Made by a program: the position numbers and the translations under genes. Under the pieces are notes generated by a model. It ran no database searches, was not told the DNA's origin, and saw only the letters and a program-made list of their open reading frames with translations. Source: Paracyclopina nana (Eukaryota; Arthropoda; Copepoda; Cyclopoida; Cyclopettidae). From it: 64,000 nucleotides of DNA. Below are positions 1,619-46,935 of the stretch, in pieces. The stretch lies in NCBI GenBank assembly GCA_019096065.1, contig JAGUCH010000006.1, positions 6,592,001 through 6,656,000 of the forward strand, in the 5' to 3' direction. The first letter of the stretch is position 1. The number at the start of each line of letters is the position of its first letter.

Positions 1619-2345
1619 TTACTGTGTCCTCGCAGTGACGGATTGAGTCAGGTCTAGCAGGGAGCCTCGAGGGGGACCCTCCATGGCGGGAGCGCTGGGC
1701 TGGGTCCCATTCGCGTCAACCACGCGTGCCTGGGGAAGGGTCTGCTGAAGGACCCCGTATAGATCCGTGTATTGCTGGTGAATCGTACGGATCTGGGCTT
1801 GGAGGTCCTGATATGCTTGGGTCTCCTTGTCGGGCCGCGTCCACCGGCGGAGAGCCTTGAGGGGCGATGTCGACTTGTCCGGAGCATCCAAAGGGTCTTT
1901 CTCTCCCGTTTCCGAACCATCTTGCACGGTGAAGTCACTGAGCTCGGTGGCCGCTCGTTCTCGGTGGTCTCGCTTCCAGCGAGGTCGGCGCCGGAAATCC
2001 GGGTGGCCATCATCCTCATCGTCGTCGCCAGGGAACAAGGGTCCGTCGTTACCCAGGTTGGCTACCATGCGCCAGGGGAGTTCGACAGCCATGAAGGCAG
2101 TGTGCCACAGGCCGTACATCAACCACCACCCAAGCCCCCGGCGGCGATACAGGATAATCATACGGATGATAGAGCCTAGGATGATCTTGATGAGGCCCAG
2201 GATCACCAAACCTCCGGTCATGTAGCTCCAGTATTTCCCCACGGTCGAAAAGAAAGGGATGAGGGCATTGCCCACCTGGTCGACCATCATGTCGATGTCG
2301 CCCTCGGACCAGAGGGTGGTGGCCCCCGATCCGCGTGCGGTTGTT
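1619..2345 (-). pseudogene. Env-like gene, C-terminal part: membrane anchor and tail (out of frame)
   Basis: This frame runs about 240 codons. It has a strongly hydrophobic stretch, starting around GGLVILGLIKIILGSIIRMI, that reads as a transmembrane anchor. An aromatic/basic juxtamembrane segment follows, then an acidic run (DDDEDD) and a long hydrophilic tail. Its first methionines (2290) are probably not real starts, because the frame is open upstream and fits the protein read in two other frames between 2345 and 2510. It is therefore the cytoplasmic end of the env-like protein, separated by a frame break near the run of five Cs at 2323-2327. The stop lies only 10 nt before the 3' LTR region. 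Confidence 0.65.
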
Positions 2346-2452
2346 CCTCAGGACGTTGGACGTCAGAGTGGTGACCACGGCCTCGCGCGCGTGGTACAGC
2401 TGCAGGTAGAGGGCGTGCTCGGCCTGCTGCTGGGCGGAGTAGATACCGCCTC

Positions 2453-3943: not shown

Positions 3944-3948
3944 TGCTT

Positions 3949-3968
3949 CTGGAAAAGAGAGTAAAGGA
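3949..3968 (-). promoter_or_regulatory. 3' splice acceptor for a subgenomic env mRNA (putative)
   Basis: On the minus strand, an almost pure pyrimidine tract ends in CCAG at 3952-3949. Five bases later comes the env ATG at 3943. This is the position expected for a spliced env message as in retroviruses and errantiviruses. A donor could be the GTAATT at 9420 or a site in the leader. Confidence 0.6.
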
Positions 3969-4131
3969 AACGTGTTGACATGCTGCCTCATTATTGTACA
4001 CCTGCCGGTTTGTGCTGCTATTATTTCTTTATTAATTGCGCTTTCTTTCAAGCCGCAGAATTTTCAAAGTATACTTAGGGGGGCCCCCAAAATTTTGCGG
4101 CCGTCTTTTCGTTGTGCTGCTCATTCGTTTG

Positions 4132-7100: not shown

Positions 7101-8358
7101 GCGTGTCGACGATGGTTACCTTGTTCAGTGCGCGGTAATCCACGCACCACCGGGTCTTCCCATTCTTCTTGGTGACCGGAACCAGCGGCGCGCACCAGGG
7201 CGACTGAATAGGGACGATGATGCCTTCCTGGAGCCATTTCTGGACTTGTTCTTCTAGCGACTTCTGCAAGTGCGGGTTGATGGGCCGCCGGCGGATGTTA
7301 ATGGGCTGAGTACCCGGGATGATATCGATGCGGTGCTCGGCCAAGTCGGTTTGGCCCGAGGACCCATCGAGGCTGAAGGTGTCCTGGTATTGTAGCAGCA
7401 GGGCCAAAGTGCGAGCTTTTAGCTGAGGGGTGCTCAAGATGTCGTTGTTTTCTAGGTCGAATTCTTGAATGAAGGTTTGGGCCATCTCGGCCGTATACTG
7501 GCCCTGCGGCCGGGTTTGGGCCCCCTCGAGCTTGGCTACGTAGCTTCCAGCTGCCAGCTTGGCCACGGTGGGTACTCGCCTCAAGCCTTCAACTTGCCCG
7601 TACCGGGTGTTGTTGTGGATAATGAGAGGCTCTGCGGTAGTGTTGATAACCCCGACAACGCAGTTGCCCTTTTCATCTGGTCGGATGAGGGCTCGCTGCC
7701 AGGGGTGCAGCTCAGTGGCCTCCATGAAGTCCCCTGATCCTTCAACAATCCCATCGATGTGCGGCGATCGGGTCCAGGTGGGGATTTTTGCGGGAATGGC
7801 GCAACAAGACATTGGCCCCACTGTGGTTTCACCCCGTGTGTAGACGGCATGGACGTTAATTGCGCGACTGTCATTTTCATTAAGTGTCCCCCCTGCCAAC
7901 TTGATCATTCGTCCTCGAATGCGGAGCGAGTTGGCACTATGTAGCTGGTCTATGTCGTGGGCTTTCATGAAGGGCCCCGACAGGTTGACGTCCATGGTGA
8001 GGTTAGCAATGACAGCTGGTCGGAATGGGAAAGGTTGCGGGTAGGTGCCGATGTGAAGCATCAATGGTTTTGGTACCTCGCCGAGTATTTCCAGAGATTG
8101 ATTTTGGCCCGCTGTGTTGACAGTTTCTCCTATCAGGGGCGCAAGTTGAGCTTTTGTGAACCCCAATTTGGTTGCAAGCGTGGAGGAGATGACCGACCTC
8201 CACGTATTACCGCTGTCGATGAGTGCTCTTGATTTGACGTTGTTGAGGCGTATTGGAACTTCAGATACGTATGATTTATTAATGTTGGAAATATGGGCGA
8301 GGAATGATCGGGCCTTGTCAGATGTGAACGTGTTTGGTGAGGTGATGGATGGTTCCAT
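4132..8358 (-). CDS. Pol polyprotein (protease, reverse transcriptase, RNase H, integrase)
   Basis: A single open frame of 1,408 residues copies element RNA into DNA and inserts it. Aspartic protease: active-site LIDSG at residues 46-50. Reverse transcriptase: substrate-side motif RWCVDYRALNK near 403-413 and catalytic YLDD at 504-507. RNase H: LDTDWS at 658-663, with further acidic residues at TDH (728-730) and ADALS (771-775). Integrase: zinc-binding HHCC (H899, H904, C934, C937) and catalytic D966, D1026 and E1061, an exact DD35E spacing. A GPY/F-like segment (FGSGPWTILRK) precedes a 200-residue hydrophilic tail. All catalytic residues I checked are present, so the enzyme looks functional. 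The first ATG lies 14 nt after the gag stop in a different frame, so expression needs frameshifting or reinitiation. Confidence 0.95.
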   Translation of the reverse strand: MEPSITSPNTFTSDKARSFLAHISNINKSYVSEVPIRLNNVKSRALIDSGNTWRSVISSTLATKLGFTKAQLAPLIGETVNTAGQNQSLEILGEVPKPLMLHIGTYPQPFPFRPAVIANLTMDVNLSGPFMKAHDIDQLHSANSLRIRGRMIKLAGGTLNENDSRAINVHAVYTRGETTVGPMSCCAIPAKIPTWTRSPHIDGIVEGSGDFMEATELHPWQRALIRPDEKGNCVVGVINTTAEPLIIHNNTRYGQVEGLRRVPTVAKLAAGSYVAKLEGAQTRPQGQYTAEMAQTFIQEFDLENNDILSTPQLKARTLALLLQYQDTFSLDGSSGQTDLAEHRIDIIPGTQPINIRRRPINPHLQKSLEEQVQKWLQEGIIVPIQSPWCAPLVPVTKKNGKTRWCVDYRALNKVTIVDTHPIGDIRDNLNRLAHSQVFSTLDTTGAFHHVPVRAEDIPKTAFAANHSTYAFAYMPFGLTNAPRTYARLIQRVLEGIPYDIALPYLDDVLIHSRDVESHFGHLQRVLDAHQRAGLKLQPSKCHLFRRRITYLGHVITPEGLSVVPEYIDVVKKWPLPRTRRQLRIFLGKCGYYRSFIKDYQKVAKALTDKLSREEDVPDTAEFEPPLEYVAAFEELKERLCMAPILAFPDFESPQPFILDTDWSGDNQCVGAVLSQVQGGKERVILFGAKKLTRSQANYSATQGELAAVIIWLRKWRYYLQYRPFILRTDHAALQWIRTMEEPRSMLARWLETISQFDFKVVHRAGTQHANADALSRAEHVTDTEGTDVSNESCAGVQAMIASAEAALDMANPAEWIQGQTEDEDLQLVRRLISQQNRPSPEHKEAASHRGKILLGLFDSLYLDDQGLLRYKKEEGQGREARHLVVVPRSSEEGLVRHIHETMGHQGRDTTVDRVSRRFYMPNATRVAAEVVATCRTCQKHQPETADQRHSLHSHRAGYPWQRVAIDYVGPLKPPVDGHQYLFTVRDLFSRWIEAFPCASANADTAVRFLTSEIIPRYGLMENLHSDRGTHFTAALFQQVAKALGVRHSTTPAYNPKSNWVERAHRDLNGLLAKLVCGRPSRWKEVLPVALFIMRTTKCRMTGYAPYELLFGRPATSQLDLLFGDPQPLLREASEAGQVAQALKARIQAAHEWARKNMATSINRQRMAYHKDKTTYVPGQQVWLYTPTVARHISKKLQTFGSGPWTILRKVNDVTFEILPDPSWIRKKSEVVSIDRLKLYRAAAEDAHDGNAGNPPPANADLSMRGDEFAEDVALPSDDEGDSENNIELPTIGHETASAPSPRETRYRKRRTQAEMLQQETADFLGAEVEVAHGASSPATRTRSRSGQKSDQPDPELPPLAPINMPPYRPLVAQPTVTMPQFRPLPEMSDSENDDFATPTNSSSASSTE

Positions 8359-8363
8359 TGATG

Positions 8364-8383
8364 GCCGGTCCCTTAGGACCGGC
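8364..8383 (-). promoter_or_regulatory. Hairpin holding the gag stop codon
   Basis: A perfect 8-bp GC-rich stem (GCCGGTCC paired with GGACCGGC) closes a 4-nt loop. The gag stop TAA (8375-8373) occupies three of the four loop bases. The pol ATG follows at 8358. The placement suggests a role in recoding or reinitiation between gag and pol, which is an inference. Confidence 0.6.
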
Positions 8384-9423
8384 TGGCTCCGTTTTTTGGC
8401 GCCTCCCAGGTGTAGGCGTCCACGGGGGCACTGGCCACATGTGCGATGGCCGCGTTGCGATATTTATTATATTCTTGGGGCGAGACCGGCGGGGCGGCGT
8501 GGTATGGAGTGTTATTGCCACGTCCGCGGCCGCCACGTCCCCGGCCCCGGAATCCTCCTCGCCCTCGTTGGCCGTTTGGGCGTTGGTTGGTGCATTGAGC
8601 CTTGAGATGGCCGTAGCCGCCGCAGCCGTAGCATCTCATGTTAGCCTTGTCGCCTAGAGCGGCGATGATCTTGGCGACGTCGGGTTGGTCTGAGGTGCCC
8701 TCTTGGGTGATTTGCATGATGCCCCCTTGCCCCAGGGGGTTGGCCTTGCCGCCGGCTAATCCTACCAGGCACTCCTTGGAGGATGCATTGGAAGCGGCCT
8801 CCGTCAGCGTATCATATTTGCTGGCGATTACCAACCAACGTGTCTGAGGGTCCCGCAGATTGATAGTGAACTTCCTAATGACCTCTGGATCCTTGTCGAC
8901 CTTGGCGCACCGCGGTGCATCATTGGCGAAAGCCCTCAGGTAGAGCGACTTGAGGCGTGCCGCCCAGGTCATTACGGATTCATGGGGACCCTGCGCGGCG
9001 GTGTCGTATGCCACCCTGGCGGCCTCTTGGGCCGACTCGTCCACAAAGGCCTTTTCAAGGTCGTCGAGGTAGTGCTTGTAGGTGTACGTATCATTGCTCG
9101 ACTTCTTGTCGATGGAATTGATCATTTCCAACGCAAGGCCGACAATAGATGCCTTGATCAGCATCTTCTTGGTGACTTCCGGCTCTATCGAGTCCTCGAA
9201 CTGGGACTCGATATGCATCCGCCATTGCTGGAAGGAGCGGCTATCTGTCTCGCGGAGCAGTTGGAGTTGTTGAGGCCGACGCTGAACAGCAGCGTTGGCT
9301 CTCATTTGGCGGTTGACCTCAAGGGCCACTGCAGCAGCTATATCTTGTGGTGGCTGGGCCTATGCGTGGGGGAGAAGAGTGAGCTTTCGGTCTTTTGTGA
9401 GAATGTGCTATTATAATTACCAT
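8373..9423 (-). CDS. Gag nucleocapsid protein (two exons proposed)
   Basis: The main frame (stop at 8375-8373) holds a helical capsid-like N-terminal half and one CCHC zinc knuckle, CYGCGGYGHLKAQC (C-x2-C-x4-H-x4-C). A glycine/arginine-rich RNA-binding tail follows (RGRGGFRGRGRGGRGRG). The first in-frame ATG inside the frame is at 9305, giving 310 residues. The frame is open further upstream to a TAG at 9362-9360, and that TAG overlaps a strong splice acceptor. The ATG at 9423-9421, in an ACCACCATGG context, is followed at once by a GT donor. Removing the 61-nt intron 9420-9360 puts that ATG in frame, giving 329 residues. I favour this model. Unspliced RNA read from 9423 gives only a 34-codon peptide. 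Confidence 0.8.
9360..9420 (-). other. Proposed 61-nt gag intron
   Basis: It begins GTAATT directly after the ATG at 9423-9421. It ends in a pyrimidine-rich run (CTCACTCTTCTCCCCCACGC) followed by ATAG. Its size matches the 56-68 nt introns of the spliced gene at 22.1-25.2 kb. Confidence 0.5.
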
Positions 9424-13797: not shown

Positions 13798-16087
13798 GCT
13801 GGAGAAATTTGGCTGATTTTACTGCTGCTGCTGCGCCGTCGCAAGAAGTCCGCGCCGTTCACTACGCCGCTCTCGAGCGGATCGTCGCAACTTTTGAGCG
13901 GCGCTTCGAGCGGCGAAACGCCAGCAACAGCTGAGACGCGAACGGCGCCGCCACTTTCAGGCCCTGCTCACCTGAATAATCTGACTATTTACAAAAGTAT
14001 GAGTTTTTTTGGTTTTTAAGTACCTTTCTTTGCAGTTTTTAGGGCAAAGAAAAAGATTACGTAATCACGGAATGCACTGGCTTAGCGTAACTCGTGAGTT
14101 GAGGTATCGCTTTTTCCGGATCAGACTCGAAGCGTCAAAAAGTTGGAAAACTTGTGGATGACAATCTTGGAAGCATTTTTCATTGGTGGCAGAGATTACG
14201 TCAGAAAGACGGCTGAATTTGGGTATGGAATAGCAAATACATCGAAACGATAATAAATGGAGTTTTTCTTGTCGATCAGATACCTTTAGGATCACATAAC
14301 TCATAGACTGACTTTTGTGTAACCTCAGATGACTTTGATTATACCACAAAAAAAAAAAAAAAAAAATGAAATCTACAAAAAAGAGGGAATAGTTATAGAA
14401 ATGGCGCCGCACAAAAGAATGTTTGCCCACAACTGCAGCATCGACAAACAATCAAATCACTTCTACTTTCCAGGTGCAGAATTTGGACATTTTTTTTTAT
14501 TATCATCATGTCCCTTTATGTTCGGAAGCTTGACAAGTGTTCCACTTCTTTATTTGACCTTTTTGCATTGTCGGTGGCAAAAAATGGCAACAATTCCTCG
14601 CATCATCAGTTGAAAGGATATGATGGGAAATAGATTTTTGAAATATAGACTGAGTATCGATCAAAAGTAGAATGCTCATTGAAATGCAAACAAGATTTTT
14701 GGGTTTATAACAAATGATGCGAGTACACGTGTCCCCGCACAATGGGAAAAGGCTGAGAAATGGCGCGTGATAAATGAGCGGTCGATTACTTTCTCAGCAA
14801 AATTATTGTCAACGCTGAGTCAGCTGACGAAGCAGGCGAAGGGGCGCGCAGCCAACATCGACAAGCCTCGAAATTCTCCTCGAATCTATTCTTCATGCTA
14901 TATTTATTTTAGCCAACTTAGGTTCGCCTCCTTATTATGACCATTAATTATAATGCGAAAATTATAACACAAAACAACAGCTAAAAAAGGTTAAAAATAT
15001 TAAATGGCCTCATCAAGAATTGCCTAGAATGGCCATTTGCGGCCTTTTTAGACTGTGAAAATAGCGAAAAAATGCAAAAAATGGCCAACTTTTTGTAATA
15101 TAAAGCATTTATCGCAGTGCTAATATCAAAAACATGTTCCTTCCACCTTCGAAAGCTATTAAAAATGCATGGAAATGTTGAAAAAGTTGTCGATCTTTGT
15201 TTGACTAGATCTAAATCCAGCGCCCCGCACTGCGTATATAGAGCAGATCTGATTGAGCGCGGCTATTTCTGATGGCGAGCATATTTCCATGTGTCACTGG
15301 AACAAATTATGACTCAATAAAGTGAAATCAGAAAACGAGGAGCAGCGTGAGAAATTGCAAAATCAAAACAGCCTTTTATATTCCTAGCGAGTGAGTAGTG
15401 AGTAATGGGCATACTTTTCGATCTTTCACGGCGGAAAATCGCTTTTTTGTCTCATATATTTGTCACTTGCACCCTCGGCTTTGACGACAAATGAGAGGGG
15501 CTGGAAATTCATTCATTCGGCGAAAATGTTTCAATTCCTCCGCGGGGAAATGATTCGCATTCCTTTTGCTGCCATGCACACAAATAATAATTAACAGCAG
15601 GCTTGAAAAGCAGTCAGAAATCTGGTCAACTCGAAAGCAGTACATTTTTAAAATAAATAATTTTTAAAAAATCACTAGTGTGTAATTTGGCTCTCTGCTT
15701 TTGTTTACTTTGATTGAAGCATGAAGCAGGATGAACCGGGTTCGAATTTCTCCCAAGAATTCCCATAGAAGGAATTCCAAAGGGCGAAAAAGAAGCAGCC
15801 AGTTATTAGAAGAATTCGCACCGCGCTGCTTTGAATTTGTCTTGGCTTGAGTTACTACAGCAGTAATTCAATCACAGCTTTTCCTCGATTTGAATTTCTG
15901 CCCAATTCTGCTCTGCTTCAACCGATTTTCTTCTTCCAAGCGGAAACTTTTTGCTCTTCAAGATGAGCCTCATCATCGTCATTGTTAGCTGGGCTGATGC
16001 ACACGGCCACTGCGGGGCATTCAGCCCCACCAAAAAGCTCAATTTTGAAACACAATGCAATGAAGTGCAAATTAAGAAATACCAATC
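13798..16087. other. Upstream region of the GATA gene
   Basis: 13825-13970 is a GC- and CpG-rich island of repeated CGCTCGAGCGGC-like words, unlike the AT-rich rest; it may be promoter-proximal or a 5' UTR. Around 13971 the minus strand has CAG followed by GTGAGC, a possible 5' UTR splice donor. A run of about 18 A lies at 14347-14366. No gene recognised up to 16087. Confidence 0.5.
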
Positions 16088-16123
16088 AAGTTCTTAAAAT
16101 ATAATTTAAGTTCTTGAAATATA
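16088..16123 (+). repeat. 20-bp satellite, left of the 10.9-kb insert
   Basis: About 1.7 copies of a 20-bp unit of the type AAGTTCTTAAAATATAATTT, ending in TA at 16122-16123. The same unit resumes at 27134 in the same phase (see the insertion finding). Confidence 0.7.
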
Positions 16124-16239
16124 GGATTATACACCTCTAGGCTGGAGGATAACACGAATTATTTTTTAGTGTCAAGTGACAGATCACGAGACACTAAAAA
16201 ATAATGAGTGTTATCCGACAGCCTAGAGGTGTATAATCC
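16124..16239. mobile_element. 116-bp near-perfect palindromic MITE
   Basis: The arms start GGATTATACACCTCTAGGCT and pair almost perfectly across a small loop, giving a long foldback. TA lies on both sides (16122-16123 and 16240-16241), as for a TA-targeting (Tc1/mariner-like) MITE. It sits in the very TA that borders the larger insert. No coding capacity. Confidence 0.7.
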
Positions 16240-16241
16240 TA

Positions 16242-16254
16242 TTACTATTAGCTG
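16242..16254 (+). repeat. Left 13-bp TIR of the 10.9-kb element
   Basis: TTACTATTAGCTG, preceded by TA. The match to the right end breaks off sharply at 16255. Confidence 0.65.
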
Positions 16255-16470
16255 CCCCCTATATTTCATCATTCTCACTTAAGTTCATTTTGATGGGGTG
16301 TCTAGTCTAATTTCTGCAAGAATGTTGCCTTAAATTTCTTGCTCTGCTTTTGTGTCAGCAATTATGTGCATAGCTCTCATCGCGTATTCTCAGCTCAACT
16401 TGTGCTCCTACTGCTCTGCTACAGCTGCCTTCCACGTTTCACTTTTTTTGCATTCAAAAATTCTAAGAAG

Positions 16471-16935
16471 ATGCCTTTTCACGTTGAAGTTGATGAGGGA
16501 GAAATTGACGAAATGGTGCTAACAAGTGGGCGCTGCTCCTCGACCTTAAGAAGTAAGGCTACCGTGGAAAAATGTTTTGCCAAATTTGCTCACGAAAGCG
16601 GATTTTCAACCCTGGAGGCTCTTATAAAGAAGAAAGATGAGCTTGAGTCCCTGTTGATCAAGTATTTTCATTCCATGAGAGTTAAGGCAACAAAAGAAGT
16701 CCCAAAAAAGAACACAGTGGAGCTTCATAAGAGTCACATCAAGATGCTGTTGCTTCAAAAGTCTGAGGGGGAGCTGGACATTGGAAATTGTGGCACTTTT
16801 TCTAAGTTTTGCGCCTTCATGAAGACTTACTTTGTAAGTTTGAAAAAGCTAGGCAAGTCTGACACAAGTCATAGGCCTGAAATCCCAGCTACATCTCTAG
16901 AGAGGACCCAACTAGGAAAATTTTTTAGATGCTAG
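16471..16935 (+). pseudogene. Crypton-type tyrosine recombinase, N-terminal exon
   Basis: From the methionine at 16471 the frame reads 154 residues. The open frame begins further upstream at 16339, but that part is hydrophobic and unlike the family, so I place the start at 16471. The layout matches the N-terminal DNA-binding (SAM-like) half of Crypton/DUF3504 recombinases. A helical segment on LIKYFHSMR is followed by HKSHIKMLLLQKSEGELDI, and then by LKKLGKSDTSHRPEIPATSL, which corresponds to the usual GKG...H-P-I linker before the catalytic domain. It stops at LGKFFRC, about where the exon at 25744 takes over (SGIYEFLSIL). I see no clean in-frame GT donor near this end. The join is therefore uncertain and the gene may be damaged. 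Confidence 0.5.
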
Positions 16936-17377
16936 GCAAGGTTACGCGATGTGACTTCAAGTTTTCGCCACTACATGTGCATGTCAGAAACCATATACGT
17001 GACATGTACAAGTTTTTGATCGTATTTCTAGGTTTTGGTTTGTAGCTGATTTTTCATCTTCATGATTAAGACAGATTTGCTAACATGTGTTTGTCGCAGA
17101 AAAATGTTGTAAACTTGTAGGTTTCATTCACATGACTACGCCAAATTTCTTTTTTTTTCAGGGGCAAGTTTTCAATATGAAATCTGACCCCACTTCTCCT
17201 TTTTGAAATGTCTCACCTTGACTACAAGTAAGTGTTGGCCTTTGGTCGACTTAGACAAAAAAGTTAGATAAATGTTGTGCAAAAGTTATGCTCATTTACA
17301 TTTCCATCCATAGTGTACGCCTTAATTAAATTTGTGACAGCTATCTATTTTTTTAGATTTTCTGATTTTCTGATTTT

Positions 17378-18046
17378 CTTCACAAGTGAGTAAAGCATTG
17401 CGCAGCGGCAGTTTTAGGGCACAGCTTATCTTTTCAGTGAATGAAACTTTCTTATATAGCCTCCCATATTTTGGTTTGTTTATTTGAAATTCGACCAATT
17501 TGTGATATTCACCATGTTTTGCATCAATTATTTCGATCTATCAAACCCTTTTTTGAGCAATTTTTAGTTTTTGTTTTGAGATTGGGCATTTTCTTCACAA
17601 GTGAGTGGAGCATTGCGTCGCGGTAGTTTTAGGGCACAGCTTATCTTTTCAGTGAATGAAACTTTCTTATATAGCCTCCCATATTTTGGTTTGTTTATTT
17701 GAAATTCGACCAATTTGTGATATTCAGCATGTTTTGCATCAATTAATTCGATCTATCAAACTCTTTTTTGTGCAATTTTTAGTTCTTGTTTTTAAGATCG
17801 AGCATTTTCTTCACAAGTGAGATGAGCATTGCGTTACGGCAGTTTTAGGGCACAGCTTATCTTTTCAGTGAATGAAAACTTTCTTAGCCTCCCATATTTT
17901 GGTTTGTTTACTTGAAATTCGACCAATTTGTGATATTCACCATGTTTTGCATCAATTATTTTGATCTATCTTTCCCTCTTCCGTACAATGTTTGGTTTTG
18001 GTTTCTAGATCGAGCTTTTTCTTCACAAGTGAGATGAGCATTGCGT
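17378..18046 (+). repeat. Tandem repeat, about 215-bp unit, 3.1 copies
   Basis: Copies start with CTTCACAAGTGAG at 17378, 17593, 17809 and 18021. Each contains the shared words AGTTTTAGGGCACAGCTTAT and GAAATTCGACCAATTTGTGA. They lie inside the 10.9-kb element, between the recombinase exon and the transposase gene. Confidence 0.85.
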
Positions 18047-18065
18047 TTCAGCTCATTCCATCACT

Positions 18066-18366
18066 AGATGCAGCGCCCTCAACCTCACCAATGGAGCGAC
18101 CTTGACCTCGCTAATGCAGCGACCTCAACCTTGAAAATGTGGCGACCTCAACCTCAAAAATACAGCGGCCTTGACCTCGGAAATGCGGCGACCTCAACCT
18201 TGCAAAGGTGGCAGCCTTGACCTCGCAAATGCAATGGCCTTGACCTTGCAAATGTGGCGACCTCGACCTCGAAAATGCGGCGACAATGACCTCGCCAATT
18301 CGGCGATCTTGACCTCTCAAATACAGAGTCCTCGGCCTCGCAAATGTGGCGACCTCAATTCACGCC
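18066..18366 (+). repeat. Tandem repeat, 23-bp unit, about 13 copies
   Basis: Degenerate units of the type GCGACCTCGACCTCGAAAATG. GC-rich compared with its surroundings. It follows the 215-bp repeats directly. Confidence 0.85.
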
Positions 18367-18550
18367 AATGCAATGCATTTTTACTTCATGATTACTGAGG
18401 ACTTTTGGTGAGGAGGCCTGAGTGCCAATTTTGCATAGGCGAGCGTGTAGAAATGCAACTCGCATAGAGATTTCTACTGTAACTGAAATTGCTATGATGT
18501 GACACATGTAATATAAAATACACAATGTTTTTACATATTCATCATGTTTT

Positions 18551-18556
18551 TTTATT
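18551..18556 (-). terminator. Polyadenylation signal of the transposase gene
   Basis: AATAAA on the minus strand, about 150 nt past the transposase stop at 18708. Confidence 0.55.
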
Positions 18557-18707
18557 CGCTATAACATGAAAACGAGGTTGATTCCACTGATTGGGCCTTA
18601 GTGGCCAAAAAAAGCATCACTGTCATGCATTGCTGCTCTCGACAGTTAGCCAATCACTACAATTTAAATCATGTTTTCACAAAGTAATGGCAAGAATTGC
18701 ATACATC

Positions 18708-21682
18708 TTAGGTGAAGAAGGAGTCAAAAGGCAGAGCGATGATGTAGTGATCATCAATGATGGCCTTGCCAATAACAACTGACTTGCTGACAACCTGTTC
18801 AGTAGGGCTTAGAGAAATCCAACGTTCCACACCAACTGCCTTCCAATTGAGGTTTGGAGCTGCATCAAACTTGACAGATTCAGTGATGTAGACTCTTGCA
18901 ATGTAGCAGTCAGCATGGATAGCGACGATCTGGTAGAACTGCTTGTGATTGGTGTACACAAGGTTATCGCCATGACGTGCCGAGCTATTGCTATTAAAGC
19001 TCACTGTGTTCTCACAGGAATGAGGACCAACATTTTTGCGGAAAACCTTTTCGATGACCTGTTTGGGAAATGACGTTGTGTTCGATTTCATCACCTTCTT
19101 CGTGAAGGAAAAGTGGCCCTCATACTTCAGCGCACTGATGGCTGGCAATCGTGAGATCCGACGAGCCCTTAGGAGATGGGACAAGTTATGGATGTTCCAT
19201 GTACAATTGATGAGCCCATGCTCCTCCTCGAAGTTGATGTAAAAGTCACGGAACACTTGCTCTAGCTTGCATGTGTTGATGATGAGGTCCAGGTTGACAT
19301 TGTCAAACATTACTGCTCTCACAATGAAAGCAAATTGGAACCAGACAGTGAGCGTACCTTCGCTGTACTTGTCAGTGGCAGAGACAGCATCAGCCACGGC
19401 AATGAAGCCAGCCAGGACAACTGACACCAACTCTTGGCTCTTGTAGTTAACAAACTCCTCGCCAAGTTTTCGTGGAGTTCTGTTGAATTCACGCGGTAAT
19501 TTGATGAAGATCCACCTCTGGTCAAACCGCGCAACACGAGCCGCTTGAGCAATAGACATGTTCTTTGTGGATTCCCCAATGCTCAGAGTCAACTGCAACA
19601 TCTTGCGAGCATTTCCAGAAAGATTGTGCATCGGCTCATAGATGAAATCATTCATAATGTCAAATTCCTCCATCAGCGCCAATGGTGTGGCTGCTCGGAT
19701 GCCCTTCAATTCGTCTTTTGAGAAAAACTCGATGCCATTTGCTTGGATTCTGTTCGCCAGATCAAACCACCCTTCTCTGGTCCTCAGGGGAGCATCCATT
19801 GTGCTAGCAGGAAAGACCATTCTTCTTTCAAGGTAGACACCAACACATTCGCACACCTCACAGCTGTACTGGCCGTTGAATTGAGTTAAGCCTTTCAGTT
19901 TAGCCCTTACGGGAGCATCACCAATGACCCTCCTGAGAACGACATTATCTCGACACGCCTCTTCAATGACCTGACCCATTATCTTGTTCGCATTTAGACC
20001 TGAACTTTTCTTGTACACGTGCATTCCTAAGATGTACACGCTAACACATGGCAAAACCTTCAAGGCAACCATGTTAAGCTGGTCTTGACTACTCTTGGCT
20101 AGTGGCAAGCCATCAAAGAAGATGGCTACGCTATTACTGGGGTCGCAGTTTGGGTGTTGGCGTGCAGCATGTTCGATGACGCTTTTAAGCGAAACAAATG
20201 CGTATTCTGACACTTTTTGCCATTCCTCAGCTGGGAAGCAACCACGAGGATAAGTCTTGCTATTAACAAGGACAACATTGCCAGTCCTCAAGTTCTTGAA
20301 TTCGTACATCATATTGACATCGGCCTTATCTTTCAAGAACTTGTTTCTGAAAGTGCGATTACCTCTCAGACCACGTTGATCGCTTTCAGCTCGAATGATA
20401 TCCATCATGATGTCCATTTGATTCACATTCATGTATGTGAATCTGGCCGCCAAGTCAAACACGTTGTAGAAAAACTCATTTTGTTCATCAAGCGTTTCCA
20501 ATGCCCGCTCCTGCCTCTTAAGCAATTTAATAGTCTTGAAGTTCAAAGGCATGTTGACGGCACCTTGAATAGTTGCATCAGCTTCGACAACATCTTCTGG
20601 AATCGGGATGTCAAATTCCTCGTCAGAACCATAACGTGGAATTTCATCATTTTCGCGCTGATTGAAATAAGCATCGACTGCATCCATACGTTCTTTTATC
20701 TCAGGACTGACTGGTGGCAGGGGAATGCTGGAAAGTATAAATAAATTTTATAAGGTATGAGTCATTTCAAGTGTACATGAATGCTTACTCATCAGCAGCA
20801 TGAGGATCGTCAGGATCTTGCGCATTGGGAATAGCATCTTGCAGCTGCTCACGTTCTCGGAGCTTCAACTGTTCAACTTGCTCTCGTGCCGCAATGACGC
20901 CTGGATCTTCATTTGCCTCCATCTCGTTCTCGCTAAACAAGTCCAAGAAGTCGAGATAATCATTGTCTTCCAGATCAGTCTGGGCACCAGATGATGCTGA
21001 GTCATAGTCTCTAATCTTGACCTTAGTTGCGTCATTGTCAACAAGCAGTTGGCCTTGGAAACGGATCCCCTCCGTATCAGGAGTAACAGAGACAGATGAA
21101 GTGTTGAAACCTTGGCTTGATCCTGGAAGTGATCGTGGGAATCCATCAAATGTTCCTTGAGCGCTACTGGCTGGTCTTTCTTTTGGACGTGCTCCAAGTT
21201 CTGACGGTGGTCTCGCAACAGGCGCAGGAACTGTCTCATTGTTTTCCTCCAGCGACGAATTCAGCTCCTGAGGCATACGATCGCTTAATCCAAGTGGCCC
21301 AATGGGAGCAGCAGCTTCTGAACCAGAATCTGTGGTAGATGCACTCATCAGGTCCGATGCAATTGCTTTTCTTATTCTGTGTTGAGCGCTTTTGATTGCC
21401 TCTTCTTGCACATCAAACTCTGGAGCATCAACGTCGTCACCCTCGAACCTAAGAAATGTACTTATTAGTTGTTGACAAGGTTTTGCGCTGCAAAGTAAAA
21501 TTCAACTCGTACAAGAAGCCGATTCGAACCCAGTACCGTTCGAGTTTAAGAGATTCATGACGGAGACCAGTTTTTATAAGATCCAGATCATCATCCAATT
21601 TCTTCAAAATGCGTGTGGTTCGGCGACGTGCCATGTCGTCATACTCTTCGGATGTTCTTCCTCTTTTTCGTGCACGCGCCAT
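18708..21682 (-). CDS. Tnp2-like (CACTA/EnSpm-related) DDE transposase
   Basis: Three exons by splice sites and frame: 21682-21537, 21448-20789 and 20727-18708, giving 941 residues. The N-terminus is short and basic (MARARKRGRTSEEY), followed by an acidic, Ser/Pro-rich region. The catalytic part has landmarks of the animal Tnp2-like family: FFDGLPLAKSS (D at about 474), VIGDAPVRAK (D at about 539), a CEVC zinc-type pair at about 558-561, RMVFP, LPREFNRTPRKL (679-690), and a C-terminal WNIHNLSHLLRA followed by E at about 805. Such enzymes cut and paste DNA. It is divergently oriented to the gene at 22118, with 435 bp between the starts. No internal stop or frameshift was seen, so it looks intact. 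The third catalytic acid was not assigned with certainty. Confidence 0.8.
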
Positions 21683-22117
21683 GATTGTACTAGCGCTGCA
21701 AATGCACTTGAAATAATGTTTTTGAAATATTTGCAGCAATGGCGTGCTAGCAAAAGAACGGGGAGGAAGTAATTAGGATGAAACTGAGACGGATGTGCAA
21801 GTTTCAACAGTTTGCTATTTGTGCTGTGATGCCTTCAAGTTTTCGCTAAGGTTTTCTTCATAACATGCTAAAAGCTGTTTAGCTGCAGATGGCGTGCTCG
21901 CTCGAACAGCGTCTCACAAAAGCTGAGAATTCAGCAGCTGCAGCAGCTACATTTAGCTACAGGTACCTGTGCATGTTTACGACATTTCTTGCTGTCAAAG
22001 TGACAGTGCCAAAAAGCCGTTGGGAAATTTAATAGAGCTTATTATTTTTCTCGCCAACGTGCAATAGGGTAAATTCTGCAAAACGAAATCGACGCGCATC
22101 AAATTGATCCGAAGAAA
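21683..22117. promoter_or_regulatory. Shared divergent promoter region
   Basis: 435 bp between the ATGs of the transposase (-) and the unknown gene (+), and the only space for both promoters. No TATA box or other element at a convincing spacing was identified. Paired expression is an inference from the layout. Confidence 0.4.
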
Positions 22118-25100
22118 ATGGCAGGAAATCCGAACGAAAAGCGGCCCGAGAAGAAGAAAAAGGGTGAATATGACAGGTACGTCATCGCCTGCCTGGACAG
22201 TTGGCCCATTTTTAGTTATATCGACATGAATTGGAGATCCAGCGACGGAAAAACTCTCCAAGAATGTGTCCCGTTTAAATTGAGGAGCTACATTTCTCAT
22301 GAGGATCGAAACCGCGATGTCTTGATCAAGATTCCTGGATTGACCGAAAGGAACTGCCGTGTGTTTGCACGCGTAGAAAAAGGTACTATTTCAAAAACTT
22401 GGCGAATTCAATGAAGCTAAAATTCATTCTTCCACTTTCAGGATTTGAAAAGTACCGGCTCGACGAGAAAATAAATGAGTGGAACAATCTGCTGAAGGGA
22501 GTCCATGACGACCAATTGGCGCAAGAGTACGCCATTCTAGTTGACGACTTCTATGAAAAGTTGATGGCTGGAAAAAACTACGAGCGTCGACTACCAGATG
22601 GAGCATTCAACTTTGATTCCTTTGACGAGAGGCAATCGAGACAAAAGGCCAAGAATCCAACAGTGCGGATGCCCATCATGAGCGACGACCGATCATCAGA
22701 CGATCAGGAGAGCATGATTCGACAGCGGGCTCTAAAAACGGCAAAGTTTCTCGAAACATTGCCGATTTCATCACCTGCGCCAGAAGCTCCAAAAGAGCAG
22801 CCTCCAAAGCGGGCCTTGAGGAGTACTGCTGAGCCATCATCAGCACCGGCCTCCATGATCTCTGGAATTTCTCGCGAGGAATTGGACAAGATTCTTATGG
22901 CCCCGCCAAAGCCCTTGGCACCAACTGTCATTGAAGCTCAGGTGCCAGTCATTCATCAGCCAGGACCGCCGGTCATAATTCAGCCATCACCGACGTCGCT
23001 CTCAAGCGCTGATGACGACAACTTGTCGCAATCTTCGACCAGCTCAATGGAGAAGCTCAATCAGGCCATTCTCGATGCAAGTAGCCTTCCTGGCCCAAGT
23101 AGGTCTGCTGAGCAAACTATCCCCATTGTTTCTCATGAGGCAACATTTGCTCAGTGCAGTGCTCTTGAGGCTGAAGCTCCGGAAGACATCCACAATTTTA
23201 CATTCAGCAATAAGGATGCTTCAATGAATGTATTCAGCCCTAAGAATAGCAGGGCTAGCGAAGACATGCCTAGCAATGTTTATGTGGTAAACCTTACGAG
23301 AACATGTATAAGAATCAGTAATGACCTGTAATCACTTTTCAGGAAGTCCCTATTCCGGAGGGAGGCGAACTTGTCACAGGCGACATGTTGAAAACAGCAT
23401 TGGCACTTCTTTTCGATAAACTGCACCACTCCGCCATGGCAATGAAGGACGATCTCCAGAAGGCCCTAGAGGAGAAGATGGATGAGCAATCGGCCACTCT
23501 GAAAAAGAAGATTGACAACAAATTTCAACATGTCATGGTAAAATCTTGGCATGATATTGTCATTGAAATGTTGCTTGGCTGACTCTACTTTATACTATTG
23601 CAGGATGTCAAAAAATCAGTCAGCGAAATTGAGGTTCGCTTGGCAAACTTCAAGCAACAGGTCATCAGCACCTCTCCGGCGAAATCCTTTAGTGGAAGCA
23701 TTGACCTCCGTGGCAAAGCTCGATTGATTTTGTTTAGACACCTCAAGTTTAACTATATGGGCGTCGCATGTGATGTTTTTTTTGCCTGCCACTTTGTGCA
23801 AGAGCAGCTATGCAACTACATATTGCCATATTTGCGTCGGATTGCCTTGGGTTCCCTGAACCATGCAGTTGCTAAAACGTGCCTACTGACATGCTTTACG
23901 CCATTGGCGAGAGCGCATCTCATATTTGGGAAATTCAAAAAGTAATGTCAAAAACTATAGCAATAACTTGCACTTATTATTGATGCATCCTTTTTAGCTC
24001 AACGAAGAACATGTACTTCAACAAGCGCCCATTGCCAGATGGTCTTCACAGCATGATCGACAATTACATGGCACCAGCTCTCGAGGATTTCATGAAGGTT
24101 GCTCATGGGTCAGAGGTTAGGCACATCGCCAACATTAAGCGGACCTGCTCTACTACGTTCAGCACTGACAGATCGGCAATGATCACTACTGCAATTGTCA
24201 ACACTCATTCTTTTCAAGAAGCTGCCGAGGCTGTGGCTGATTGCGACTTTCTGTACAGAGAGTACAATAAGCACCACCAAAAAGCGACCACAAAGGTGCC
24301 AAGTCGTGAAGAGTTTATCGCGAAAACGTTGACTCGATCGGAGTTTGGCAAGAGCAAAAGCAAGCCTCTAACGGTGCCTGTGCAAAAGGATAAGATTTTT
24401 GCCGACATGATGACTCAAACAAGTCACGAGATCTTAGATCCTCATGAAATGCTCCGCCAGATCATTGTTGCAGCCCATTTGTTTGGTCAGGACTATGCCA
24501 ATTTGAAGTTTGACAAGCTGGACTGTGTACCTGATGTGAGTATATCGACATTATCTGATGCTGATGACGCTATTCTTCATGAGAGACCCTTTTAACTTTG
24601 CAGCTCCCTGACATGTACCGAGAAGTCCTGGATGGCATTTCGGACATCAATGCACTTGTGGCAAAGTATTCGGCAGATGCGAGTGCCCAATTGCCAGAAA
24701 TTACTGTGGAAGGAATAACCTCACCTGAAAGGCCTGGAACATCAGGCAACAAGAGAGCCACAGCCACAAGACAACTGAGCTTCACTGAGCCATCAACTTC
24801 TAAGGTAAATTTAGTCATGGCTGAAACTTTAATACACTTTGATGCCAATAACTTGTTGCAGAGAGCAAAGATCGATGAAAGCCTCCTTTCCGACGACAGC
24901 GACGATAGCAATGGCAGCATGGATGACTTCAAGGTCCCTTCCAACCCTCCAGTAAGTCCCAGTTACTATCCAACCAAGTTTTATTCAAACAATGTCAACT
25001 TATGTTCCAAAACCCTCACACAAACATGACCATCCTCATCATCTTCCTCTTTTGCAGGCAGGAACTAAACCCACTGTGTCCAAGCGTGGATTGAAGGTGA

Positions 25101-25192
25101 TCCTGCCCAAGAGAAGCCAAGGAGTTCCTGCTGAGATCCTCTCAGGTTCGTCGTCATCTGGATCGGATTCTGAAAAAGCAAAGAACAATTAA
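22118..25192 (+). CDS. Eight-exon gene of unknown family, inside the 10.9-kb element
   Basis: Exons: 22118-22382, 22442-23286, 23343-23537, 23604-23941, 23998-24535, 24604-24804, 24862-24951 and 25058-25192. All joins are GT/AG and keep frame, giving 868 residues; seven introns of 56-106 nt. The start ATG follows an AT-rich 5' flank, and AATAAA lies at 25310. The N-terminus is basic (NEKRPEKKKKGEYDRYV) and leads into a compact domain (DSWPIFSYIDMNW...). The middle is a long low-complexity Pro/Ser/Ala stretch (exon 2). A charged coiled-coil-like segment follows (exon 3, KKKIDNKFQHVM). A second folded region spans exons 4-5, with KARLILFRHLKFNY and LNHAVAKTCLLTCFTPLA. The C-terminus is acidic and serine-rich (SGSSSSGSDSE). 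I recognise no family. It may be an accessory factor of the neighbouring transposase, or cargo. Confidence 0.75.
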
Positions 25193-25309
25193 TGGACTTG
25201 AAAAGATGCCTGCTGCAATTATTCTTCAATATGACTTTCGATTGTACATAATTAAGTGCAAATTCCTTATGACTTCACTTATTCAGCAGCTATATTAATG
25301 CATTAATTA

Positions 25310-25315
25310 AATAAA
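25310..25315 (+). terminator. Polyadenylation signal of the unknown gene
   Basis: AATAAA about 117 nt after the stop at 25192. Confidence 0.65.
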
Positions 25316-25743
25316 CACAAGTTTGACAATATTGCAACATCAGTTGAGGCCTTTCAGGCCTAAGAGGCCATCAAGGCACAAATTCGCGAGGCCGCATGAG
25401 CTACATGCAGTGAAAAGGTTTCGCCATTAAGCGCTCGAAACTATTTTGAACTACTCCATTTTCTTAACAGGTTTTTGCAAAATAGTGACATTGCAGCATT
25501 AGTCTTTCATTGCTGTGGTCAGCATATGCTGGATCAGGTGAATGAGCAGCAACATTTCTTCTGACAATTGATGATCATTTTCTTGCGTAAAGTTGACGCT
25601 CTTATGTACTAAATATGAAGCTCAGATCTACATGGAGGCTAACATGAATGTACCATAGTGGGACTTCTTTGTTAAGAACTTGACGAAAAATTATCGCGAA
25701 AATATTGCGATGTCAGCGACATGCCGACCCTCTTTTTTCCTAG
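25316..25743. other. Spacer before the recombinase catalytic exons
   Basis: No reading frame of note. It begins with a short GGCCTTTCAGGCCTAAGAGGCC-like run (25349-25370) and ends in the pyrimidine tract CCCTCTTTTTTCCTAG, the acceptor for the exon at 25744. Confidence 0.5.
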
Positions 25744-26980
25744 TCGGGGATTTATGAGTTCTTGAGCATTCTCTCTGATCTCATGGTAATGGATGAGAGT
25801 GATATCGAATTCGAGGCAAAATTGTCAGCTCTGCCTCAAAATATGAGGTCACAATATCACTATCTTGTCCAATATGGAGTGATTTTCGTCATTCTTAGCC
25901 AGGTAAATGAATGGAACATTTAATAAACGACTGAAAACTCAATTACTTTTATCTATATAGTTTGCAAGGAGAGGAAGAGAAGGTATTGACCAGCTCACCA
26001 AGAGCCATATTCAGCTCCAAGAAGATCCAAACTCTGGAAAGAAGTACTTTAAAAAGGTTATTGGAGAGTACTCCAAAAACCATAGGGATGATGATGAAGA
26101 CCTGGAAACTGGAGGCATAGTCTTGTTTGAGGAGAATGCCATGGGATTTAATCCTGGTGACTTCATTCAAAGATATCTGGAAAAGCTTCCTCCAGAGTCT
26201 GCCTTGATTTTCACGAGGCCAAAAAGGAAATCTCAACATTTCAACCTCTTTGCCAATCCAAATGTTTGGTATGAAAAGACGAAAATTGGGCCTTCTCAAG
26301 TGGGGAAAGCCCTGCCAGAGCTCTCCAATGCCATAGGTATACCAAGGATCATAAATGCTCAAGTCAGGCCCACTTCAATTCGCCTGCTCAAGAGATCTGG
26401 AGCTGAAGACAGGGAAATATCAAGCATTTCAGGCCACAAGTCTCTTGAAACTCTTGCTCATTATGATCCTAAGCCTACACTTAAAAGGCAAATGGAAATG
26501 GCTCGTGCTATTGTTAATGGAGGGGCTGAACTTGTGAGCATGGCCACTACCAATGAGATGGCTGGTTCTGCTTCTTTGGATTGTGAAGAGTTCATTGATA
26601 TGGATCCTCCTAATGCCAAAAAGCCAATGCCATCAGCTACAATTACAAGTGATGCCTCTGAGAAACAGTTTGTCCAAGATGAAGCTGATGAGATCATTGC
26701 CACAAATGATCCAGATGAGAAGCATGAGGATAACTTTGTCAATGAGGATCCTCCTGATGCAGGTACGACAAAGGAGGAAATTGATAAGGAAGAAAAAGGC
26801 CACAAAATGCTAATCTTAAGCCAAGATCATGAGGAACCAAGTTTAAGAACAAATGAGTCATCAATTGAGGCACTACTTCGCAGAGAACAGCAACTTGCTG
26901 CTCAAAATCAGGAAATTTACTTTCAAGGAATGCAAAGTCGATTGAATCTTGCTGAAATGATATTCAAGAAAGCCAAATAA
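25744..26980 (+). CDS. Crypton-type tyrosine recombinase, catalytic exons
   Basis: Two exons: 25744-25902 and 25961-26980, joined in frame across a 58-nt intron, with 392 residues to the stop. This is the catalytic half of a Crypton/DUF3504 tyrosine recombinase, which cuts DNA through a covalent 3'-phosphotyrosine. Landmarks: FARRGREGID (first catalytic Arg) right after the intron; GKKYFKKVIGE (beta-hairpin Lys) and then KNHRDDDED; NAQVRPTSIRLL, the HxxR box with Gln in place of the usual His; and ISGHKSLETLAHYDP (second His and the nucleophile Tyr). The tail of about 170 residues is acidic and ends in a Gln-rich helix (REQQLAAQNQEIYFQ). The N-terminal half is probably the exon at 16471, 8.8 kb upstream, with the transposase pair in the space between. 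AATAAA follows at 27232. Confidence 0.75.
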
Positions 26981-27120
26981 ACTTTTTGTGTCAATCAGAG
27001 GTAATAATGATCATTATTCATCTACAATAGGATAATGCGCATTATGCATTTTCTCAGCTTGAGTCTTGGCTGAAATAGCAAAAATTATGAGCTTCTTGCT
27101 TATGTACTGCTCAGCACGCT

Positions 27121-27133
27121 CAGCTAATAGTAA
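27121..27133 (-). repeat. Right 13-bp TIR of the 10.9-kb element
   Basis: CAGCTAATAGTAA, the exact reverse complement of 16242-16254, followed by TA at 27134-27135 and then the 20-bp satellite. Confidence 0.65.
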
Positions 27134-27212
27134 TACAAATTTAGCTCTTAAAATACAAATTTAGCTCTTAAAATACAAATTAAGTTCTTAAAATACAACT
27201 TATGTACTTAAA
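27134..27212 (+). repeat. 20-bp satellite, right of the insert
   Basis: About four copies of TACAAATTTAGCTCTTAAAA. The later copies drift toward the left-flank type (AAGTTCTTAAAATACAACTT). Confidence 0.85.
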
Positions 27213-28136
27213 GTACATTGAAAGAACTTGCAATAAATAATAAGAATTATTTTTGAGGGCAGAATTTAAGTTTTCTAGGCATTAATGATGCATCTGCTGC
27301 ACAAAATGGGTTTTTGAGGCATTTTGGCGGAGTTAAGCTGGAAAATGTTCGGTTTAGCTGAGTGAGTGCCCCAGTGTGCTCCGCTCGCTTTATAGTGGAT
27401 ATCCAAGTTTAGGAAGTAGGGCTTGGGCACACACCTCACTATTTCGATCTCTATCAGGAGATTGAACGCATTGATAAGCTGCTCTTCACTCTCTCACACT
27501 CGAAATGGCTTCAGCAGGCACAAAAAAGGCCAATACCTTCTTTTTTCAGCCTCATCAAAGAAAGGCCAATTAGTGCTTTTGCAAAGGCCGAGGAAACTAG
27601 CACAACATCATCATCAAACGCCACAGTGGATTATTTTGCATTGATACTGTACTGAAGAAACCTTCAAGCTAGAAAAATGAAGATTTTCCGCCAGTTTTGT
27701 TACCAGCTTTTTTATAGAGTTTTTATGGTGGCGAAAACTGTGCGCCAAGAAGAAAATTCCACCGTGGAAGAAGAAAGCCATATAACAACAACAATTTATT
27801 GTTTATTGGCCTTTTGCAGCACGCGCATAAGGCTGAGGTCATCTACTGCATGCGCTTAACTATAGGGCGTAGCAGTAGATGACCGGTCAATAAAATTGGC
27901 TTTTTCTTCTTGAGCTCGGCCATTGACATCTTGGACACGTGGGACAAAATTCGCTCCAAATCAACTCTGGTCACGTTCCAACAGAGATAACAATGCACTA
28001 GGAATTTTACCAGAATTTGGCCCCAAAACTGAAATTGATGGATTATCCACGGAAAACAAAGCCAAAATTAATGAGAAATCCCCTTTTCTGGGATTTTTTC
28101 CGTTTAGTGTTTGAGCAGCTTTCTAAAAAGGTTTTA
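27213..28136. other. No gene seen
   Basis: AT-rich DNA with short overlapping frames. It contains AATAAA at 27232, probably the polyadenylation signal of the recombinase exons. Bases 28134-28136 are the TTA duplication of the next element. Confidence 0.5.
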
Positions 28137-30820: not shown

Positions 30821-31240
30821 TGAGTATCTAAAGCCTTCTTAGAAATATCAAAGGGCATGTTAGGAGCATCTAAGACCTTCTAAGAATTAAGTTTCTAGGA
30901 ATTTCTGAGAAGTATCTAAGACATTCTCAGAAGTATCTAAGACATTCTTAGAAATATCTAAGACATTCTTAGAATCGATCATCTTAGATATTCTGAGAAG
31001 TATCTAAGACATTCTCAGAAGTATCTAAGACATTCTAAGAAGTATCTTAGAAATTCTGAGTAGTATCTAAGAGCTTCTGAGAAGTATCTAAGGGGTTCTA
31101 AGAAGCATCATAGGGCTTCTTGGGAGTATCTAAGATCTTCTTAGAAGTATACAAGATTATCTTTGAAATATCTTAGGTCTTCTGAAGAGCATCTAAGATC
31201 TTCTATCTAAGAGCTCCTGAAAAGTATCCAAAAGGCCTTC
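30821..31240 (+). repeat. Degenerate 20-bp tandem repeat
   Basis: Units of the type AGAAGTATCTAAGACATTCT, about 20 copies with many substitutions, partly in higher-order form. Confidence 0.85.
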
Positions 31241-31828
31241 TTGGAAGTATCCATAATTCATTATGGGCCATTTGAACACATATGAGAACTCTAGGAGCCT
31301 CTTCAGCTAACTGATGACTTTCTCTAGGCTATTCATAGGTGTCAATGAAGTCTGCTGAATTGACTTTTTTCAAGTCTCTATTGACTTATGTTACATCCGA
31401 ATAGTTAAACTTTTTTCTATGAATATGTGCTCTGTGGAGCCAAGTTTCTTCGCAGAAAGGAGGGAAGTAGATGAGGTGAGTCTTCTTAGAAGTATACAAG
31501 ATTATCTTTGAAATATCTTAGGTCTTCTTAGGAGCATCTAAGATCTTCTATCTAAGAACTCCTGAAAAGTATCCAAAAGGCCTTCTTGGAAGTATCCATA
31601 ATTCATTATGGGCCATTTGAACACATATGAGAACTCTAGGAGCCTCTTCAGCTAACTGATGACTTTCTCTAGGCTATTCATAGGTGTCAATGAAGTCTGC
31701 TGAATTGACTTTTTTCAAGTCTCTATTGACTTATGTTACATCCGAATAGTTAAACTTTTTTCTATGAATTAGTGCTCTGTGGAGCCAAGTTTCTTCGCAG
31801 AAAGGAGGGAAGTAGATGAGGTGAGTCT
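31137..31828 (+). repeat. 345-bp tandem duplication
   Basis: 31137-31481 and 31482-31828 are near-identical direct copies, offset by 345 bp. For example, TTAGAAGTATACAAGATTAT occurs at 31141 and 31486. The left copy overlaps the end of the 20-bp array. Confidence 0.9.
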
Positions 31829-46524: not shown

Positions 46525-46935
46525 GAATGAATAATGACTTGAGTCTTACAAATGACTGGAGTCTTTCAAGTGACTTGAGTCTTACAAGTGACTTGAGTCT
46601 TACAAGTGACTTGAGTCTTACAAGTGACTTGAGTCTTACAAGTGACTTGAGTCTTACAAGTGACTTGAGTCTTACAAGTGACTTGAGTATTACAAGTGAC
46701 TTGAGTCTTACAAGTGACTTGAGTCTTACAAGTGACTTGAGTCTTACAAGTGACTTGAGTCTTTCAAGTGACTTGAGACTTACAAGTGACTTGAGTCTTA
46801 CAAGTGACTTGAGTCTTACTAGTGACCTGAGTCCTTCAAGTGACTTGAGTCTTCCAAATAATATGATTCTTAAAAGTGACTTAATCCTTAAAAATGACTT
46901 GAGTCTCGAAAAAAGACTTGAGTCTCAAAAAAAGA
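46525..46935 (+). repeat. 18-bp minisatellite, about 22 copies
   Basis: Consensus AAGTGACTTGAGTCTTAC. The period is a multiple of three, so one frame stays open for 137 codons as a repeated SLTSDL. This is a by-product of the repeat, since codon three varies no less than the others and there is no start context. It shares the core AAGTGACTT with the array at 44.4-45.4 kb. Confidence 0.9.

Follow-up and report, generated by a model that had tools for sequence, protein, structure and literature searches.

Organization of the locus

The 64,000-nucleotide stretch of Paracyclopina nana DNA analysed here (contig JAGUCH010000006.1, C6:6592001-6656000, hereafter the window) includes an insert in a 20-bp satellite that is two nested elements: an outer element of approximately 2.2 kb (16122-27131, its guest not counted in the length), which encodes a probable tyrosine recombinase (YR), and an unrelated transposon that splits it. 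The outer element has a palindromic left end, is bounded by the tetranucleotide AATA and belongs to a family composed largely of miniature copies. Genome-wide counts cover 92 Mb in 10 contigs, for which the designations C1, C2, C6 and C9 are used where needed. The features of the host satellite and the outer element are as follows (the nested transposon is listed further below):

16082..16121, plus strand: host 20-bp satellite serving as insertion target, two units on the left
16118..16121, plus strand: left AATA core
16122..16241, no strand: palindrome of the left end, with 120 bp in the window copy and 150 bp in the copy on C1 and in 39 of 50 parsed copies (C1 included)
16228..16254, plus strand: internal complementary region, composed of GGTGTATAATCCTA and TTACTATTAGCTG; but for one missing TA, it corresponds to the end-to-end junction read as its reverse complement
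16242..16254, plus strand: left 13-mer of the initial annotation, TTACTATTAGCTG, internal to the outer element and not terminal (from the sequence)
16471..16906, plus strand: exon 1 of the probable YR gene, 5' part, broken by the nested transposon (tblastn, comparison with C1)
25751..25902, plus strand: exon 1 of the same gene, 3' part (comparison with C1)
25903..25960, plus strand: its putative intron, 58 bp (from the frame and GT...AG)
25961..26980, plus strand: its exon 2, with the predicted catalytic region and stop (R200..E203, R332-x22-H355-x8-Y364, numbered on the 535-aa protein of C1)
26997..27050, no strand: subterminal palindromic stretch common to the miniatures (blast of copies against the YR element, reference 1912-1965)
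27098..27131, plus strand: right end, approximately 34 bp common to the miniatures, ending in CAGCTAATAGT
27121..27133, minus strand: right 13-mer of the initial annotation, the exact reverse complement of the left one
27132..27135, plus strand: right AATA core
27136..27215, plus strand: host satellite, four units on the right, with CAA-ATTT as the right target half

The nesting is apparent from a second full copy of the outer element (C1, L063), which has the same left and right ends within unrelated flanks and is without the sequence corresponding to window positions 16907-25748. In outer sequence the two copies differ by two substitutions and by 30 bp absent from the centre of the palindrome of the window. 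The initial annotation had described the insert as having entered as one unit, or as a unit later filled by others; comparison of the copies removes single-unit entry and bears out later filling, as 8,842 bp inside the insert came separately. Its description of the satellite is upheld, with six successive units in register, unit by unit, once the flanks are joined. The 13-mer TTACTATTAGCTG at 16242-16254 and the same sequence, exactly reverse-complemented, at 27121-27133 are likewise read directly in the sequence and have TA on their outer sides. The 13-mer is far from a chance occurrence, with 198 exact matches genome-wide (110 + 88) versus 2 (1 + 1) for a reversed control. The further copies with these ends for which the annotation proposed a search do exist, as the second full copy on C1 and as the left ends of well over a hundred relatives.

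The edges of the insert have to be redrawn. The left satellite ends at 16121, not at 16123, and the 120-bp palindrome separates it from the left 13-mer, so that the 13-mers do not both lie at the edges of the split satellite. Nor are they the terminal inverted repeats of the insert, the left extremity being TAGGATTATACACC and the right extremity AGT followed by AATA. The supposed TA duplication is part of a bounding AATA repeat (16118-16121 and 27132-27135), and it is AATA rather than TA that recurs in the 50 copies parsed below.

The AATA core and its target

Both ends are readable in 50 copies, comprising 48 of 54 distinct rows, L083 and a tandem partner in L073; the other six rows were left out as their palindrome start or right end is unreadable. 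The parse required a palindrome arm and is hence silent on whether every copy has one. AATA precedes the left end in 47 of the 50 copies (44 of 47 once three copies that abut another copy at the left are dropped) and follows the right end in 48, the exceptions being L082 and L083. The dinucleotide AA stands before the left TA in 48 copies; the background probability of AA before TA in the window is 0.11. The preference extends past the repeat, to T at -5 (35 copies), A at +4 (33), T at +5 (33), T at +6 (44) and A at +7 (26), with small binomial probabilities for T-5, A+4, T+5 and T+6. When the three copies that have a palindrome at the right are removed, the same positions hold 33, 33, 33, 41 and 26 of 47. 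The resulting target consensus, TAATA-N3-ATTA (sequence form TAATANNNATTA), is a dyad with its axis off the middle of AATA (TAAT-ANNN-ATTA), and resembles the end-to-end junction of the outer element itself, TAATA-TAGG-ATTA.

A single AATA is found at the joint in the best paralogous or satellite empty site of four copies (the window copy, L004, L032 and L038), and the satellite of the window, when joined, also keeps one. The cleanest empty sites are those of L004, in which AATA is kept gaplessly in L083 and L075 (approximately 91%) and in L049 (84%). Short terminal direct repeats (4-6 bp) that also occur in the target, a Crypton trait, are thus present as AATA on both sides of the copies and in these empty sites. 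Copies also occur head to tail: AGT-AATA-TAGG junctions, in which two copies share one AATA, number 12 genome-wide at up to three mismatches, and 8 of them are exact. In the three tandem pairs with readable lengths the partners are unequal and, thus, are not simple duplications. At one further site (L058/L081, C9 around 659990) two right ends face each other across a single TAATA-CTT-ATTA, an arrangement consistent with a dyad target that is usable from either strand.

The best surviving alternative, although an unlikely one, is a cut-and-paste, TA-duplicating DDE (mariner-like) transposon with ends TAGG...AGTAA that holds a YR by chance. TA does occur at both edges, the internal complementary region would then be exactly what a blunt joining of both ends gives, and a precedent exists in MarCry-1_FO, a Crypton with terminal inverted repeats and a TA duplication (PMC3212892, in the part available). 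However, a symmetric target with a TA duplication of 2 bp at its centre is not what the copies display: the repeat is AATA, and the dyad is off-centre to the repeated bases. The extremities are not mutual inverted repeats, as TAGGATTATACACC and the reverse complement of CAGCTAATAGT differ and the 13-mer pair is internal at the left, and the behaviour of the palindrome is that of a component of the element. The transposase-like frame of the window belongs to the nested element. The 2.2-kb copy on C1 has no DDE frame. In the parsed copies devoid of YR, ATG frames reach at most 204 aa, in a repetitive one (L083; these frames were not compared with domain libraries). Where copies have a recognizable mobility gene of their own, it is the probable YR, not a DDE transposase. 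DDE transposition with TA duplication would not readily account for the tandems, for extremities that do not match, for a dyad away from the centre or for the constancy of AA. The classical TIR transposon with a TA duplication, as read in the initial annotation, was set aside as unsupported once the 50 copies had been tabulated.

The palindromic left end

We take the palindrome, of 120-150 bp, to be the real left end of the outer element. A set of 26 loci retrieved with queries that did not include the palindrome (L001-L008 and L045-L062) yielded 17 left ends; the inner arm (up to four mismatches) is present at 16 of the 17 and the outer arm too at 13. A palindrome follows only three of 65 right ends, and all three are head-to-tail junctions. 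Genome-wide, 138 + 144 arms are found at up to two mismatches, or nearly two for each of the 145 left ends in which a palindrome arm and the 13-mer occur together (up to three mismatches). That the palindrome is a chance neighbour of left ends was judged unlikely from these counts, the right-end test and the adjacency of the arm. The palindromes of 38 miniatures have 93-99% identity to that of the YR copy, and among those miniatures the median identity is 97% for the palindrome versus 79% for the bodies.

The stem was compared in 39 palindromes, all of the 150-bp form (24 distinct), with shorter ones excluded. Tandem G.A mismatches within it are kept in approximately 33 of 39 and in 36 of 39 copies, pairs 4, 12, 49 and 50 are changed on both sides, and several pairs are changed on one side. 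The two-sided (compensatory) changes were not accepted as proof that folding has a function, as conversion between the arms yields an identical pattern and one-sided changes are present; constraint and arm-to-arm conversion could both account for the conservation and pairing. The internal complementary region matches the reverse complement of the end junction less TA; internal complementary regions that meet at a circular junction are a trait of DIRS1-type elements. In a calculated fold of the would-be circle junction of the C1 copy, the palindrome joins the right end in a single stem with a TA bulge of 2 bases; such a predicted stem could explain why the copies read have their palindrome at the same end.

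An origin of the palindrome as an independent hairpin miniature inverted-repeat transposable element (MITE), either hitch-hiking from one founder or landing repeatedly beside left ends, is highly improbable. The palindrome does look like a foldback MITE bounded by TA, shorter versions of it occur, and single arms are located on C2 near 3.503, 3.571, 10.620 and 10.712 Mb with no left end among the matches listed; these arms may be either decayed copies or solo palindromes. Opposed to this origin are the 16 of 17 left ends with an adjacent arm, the ratio of two arms per left end, the restriction of the palindrome at right ends to tandem junctions and its better conservation than the bodies. A palindrome outside the moving unit would, in addition, stay behind at each move.

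The probable tyrosine recombinase gene

The protein encoded by exon 2 occurs at two places, the window and C1:5255163-5256179, and is 100% identical between them. In the C1 copy, exon 1 (588 bp), the 58-bp intron and exon 2 give an open frame of 535 aa, the only intact YR frame found; the body of this copy is 2,046 bp, consists mostly of the YR gene and leaves no room for further frames. The intron is present in both YR copies. The nested transposon interrupts exon 1 in the window, and the YR gene of the window copy is, thus, broken. When aligned by hhalign to XerD, XerC, lambda Int and Cre, the protein has an R332-x22-H355-x8-Y364 spacing that is the same as that of XerD, gapless over 34 columns, and in our reading R200..E203 resembles box I.

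The protein has no match to PF12012 (DUF3504) at E ≤ 1. The DUF3504 model identifies two other gene loci in the genome, and this domain occurs in ZMYM/WOC-type animal genes (PMC3212892, as far as its available text goes); the two loci point to an animal genome. The sole YR relative found (7,992 and 7,991 candidates scored) is P0001, which is 40% identical, 900 aa in length and composed of two YR-like domains, of which the first is cut short and the second has a cysteine in place of the tyrosine; P0001 is perhaps a domesticated gene or a broken element. No homologues of the YR were found in viral contigs, and a search of solved structures by sequence gave no YR match.

Family and miniature copies

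Left-type ends number 164 genome-wide at up to two mismatches whatever precedes them, and 153 with CCT before (up to two mismatches). Body lengths in the 50 parsed copies range from 428 to 2,046 bp, the window copy excepted, and no YR is found in these copies beyond the two described above. Outside the palindrome, the miniatures have in common with the YR element only approximately 27 bp at the left, approximately 34 bp at the right and the subterminal palindromic stretch. Long copies were considered as other autonomous sources and rejected, as L092, L070 and L083 are all without YR. L092 (C1:10163300-10171900) is approximately 8.2 kb and its right end is joined head-to-tail to the variant palindrome of another copy; by eye, it looks like a miniature that holds a nested retroelement with a reverse-transcriptase-like frame.

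Proposed mechanism

The outer insert is probably a DNA-only, YR-encoding element of the Crypton type, with a palindromic left end and site-specific integration. We infer that the protein is an active YR and that this YR is the enzyme that moves the family. The YR would recombine the two flanking AATA repeats and excise the element as a circle with the junction AGT-AATA-TAGGATTATACACC. The circle would integrate site-specifically at genomic sites like its own junction (TAATA-N3-ATTA), a reaction that would need no gap-filling and would leave an AATA at either side. The miniatures keep the palindrome, some 27 bp next to it, some 34 bp at the right end and the subterminal palindromic stretch, and these may be the parts required in cis; the miniatures would be mobilized in trans by the few YR-encoding copies. 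At a later time, the unrelated 8.84-kb transposon entered the YR exon and disabled the window copy.

Several observations weigh against this interpretation. The YR assignment is a probable one, made at the level of motifs and of a Pfam Phage_integrase match that is weak and below the curated cut-off (E = 0.007 for the exon and 0.015 for the protein, in the C-terminal motif region). The alignment to XerD has an E of 0.015 and a probability of 3%, the histidine of HxxR is replaced by an alanine (A329), the Phage_integrase model has no match at E ≤ 1 over the whole genome, and both AlphaFold models are of low confidence (pLDDT 43.5 and 37.1) and give the YR no structural support. The circle is an inferred stage of which none was observed, and the head-to-tail junctions are only consistent with it. 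The right flank of the C1 copy (ATC-GAAA) is without the ATT preference, a 76% match to L004 (L002/L051) does not keep AATA, and neither do some more diverged satellite units beside L038. The 50 parsed copies make up roughly one third of the family and are a non-random sample, and so little is shared outside the palindrome that another, undetected source of the miniatures is possible.

Very unlikely, too, is a DIRS1-type derivative that lost its reverse transcriptase and moves through an RNA or single-stranded intermediate with ends splinted by the internal complementary region: this region adjoins the two end complements as in DIRS1-like elements, and integration by core identity without target duplication is described for the latter, with termini that are often NTT and mostly ATT (PMC3266345, available part), but the intact 2.2-kb copy is without RT (reverse transcriptase), RNase H and MT frames, long inverted terminal repeats are absent, and an intron in both YR copies is contrary to a spliced sense-RNA intermediate.

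An extension of the Crypton-type mechanism, which we regard as doubtful though less so than the alternatives above, is recombination on a folded hairpin. By analogy to attC sites or to the DIRS1 splint, the right end, the 2-nt TA bulge and the palindrome would form a long imperfect stem with unpaired bases at the crossover, and the YR would pick one of two mirror-image junctions. If this were the case, a DNA-only element that recombines as a folded hairpin could represent the source of the recombination machinery of DIRS retrotransposons.

Relationship to known systems

Cryptons are said to have boundaries that are difficult to define, and according to Kojima and Jurka terminal repeats were not found in animal Cryptons (PMC3212892, in the sections available). 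The outer element is similar to Cryptons in that a probable YR is the sole mobility gene, non-autonomous derivatives outnumber autonomous copies and short direct repeats occur at both ends, these being 4-6 bp in fungal and oomycete Cryptons (same source, same extent). It differs in its AATA core, TAATA-N3-ATTA target, palindromic end and internal complementary region, and in a YR with no DUF3504 match at the E ≤ 1 given above. A palindromic-ended animal Crypton was not found in titles and abstract starts of the open-licence PMC literature (Repbase and subscription papers are outside this search).

In DIRS1-like elements, internal complementary regions complement both ends and meet at the junction, and integration is by core identity (PMC3266345, to the extent available). 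By contrast, the complementary region of the outer element adjoins the left end and differs from the junction by 2 bp, whereas that of DIRS1 overlaps on 3 bp, and the intact copy has neither RT, RNase H and MT nor long inverted terminal repeats. Integron attC sites have a similar imperfect palindrome at the crossover, in which an unpaired element (here TA) could mark the strand or side (PMC8946536, partial text). Unlike attC, which is said to be little conserved in sequence (PMC8946536, likewise), the end of the outer element is eukaryotic and strongly conserved; the resemblance is a likeness only, drawn from a predicted fold. The Crypton-mariner fusion MarCry-1_FO also has a YR gene within an element with inverted repeats near TA but carries a DDE transposase and 16-bp terminal inverted repeats (PMC3212892, from the text at hand), neither of which is found in the outer element.

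For an element of the Crypton type, dozens of copies here provide a target motif, a core for attachment and candidates for the parts needed in cis. An element that lacks a reverse transcriptase but has a DIRS1-like internal complementary region is a case specific enough to be tested. As the YR-encoding copies found number just two, one of which is broken, the system is small enough to reconstitute.

The nested transposon

The transposon within YR exon 1 has the following features:

16905..16906, plus strand: left GA target duplication (comparison with the uninterrupted C1 copy)
16907..25748, no strand: nested transposon, 8,842 bp, ends CCCAACTAGG / CCTAGTCGGG (comparison with C1)
18708..20687, minus strand: 659-aa frame, probable transposase (open reading frame)
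22118..25192, plus strand: candidate second, divergent gene region (reading frames only)
25749..25750, plus strand: right GA target duplication

A second copy (C1:12910038-12918875) differs by one substitution and two short indels and has a 2-bp duplication of its own, CT. Relatives of the 659-aa frame are numerous in the genome, with 68 among the matches listed (31-100% identity), many as open frames of 850-1000 aa (e.g., L011-L022). The frame has no usable Pfam or NCBIfam match, and of 7,742 protein-collection candidates that were scored none reaches E ≤ 0.001; this family is possibly an unrecognized transposase group. For want of a usable match the probable transposase is assigned to no superfamily, although it may resemble those of CACTA/EnSpm elements.

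Other features of the window

A Gypsy-type element is located at 1619-9359 on the minus strand, with a gag-like frame (PNMA, zinc knuckle) and a frame of 1443 aa for protease, reverse transcriptase, RNase H and integrase. Two of its frames match the Monjiviricetes fusion glycoprotein model (E = 4e-55 and 1.5e-5, the latter below the cut-off), and the element appears from these matches to be an env-bearing retroelement. Other short-period satellites (units of 18-21 bp) and a 345-bp tandem pair are found at 44482-45358, 46535-46944, 31136-31828 and 50342-50814.

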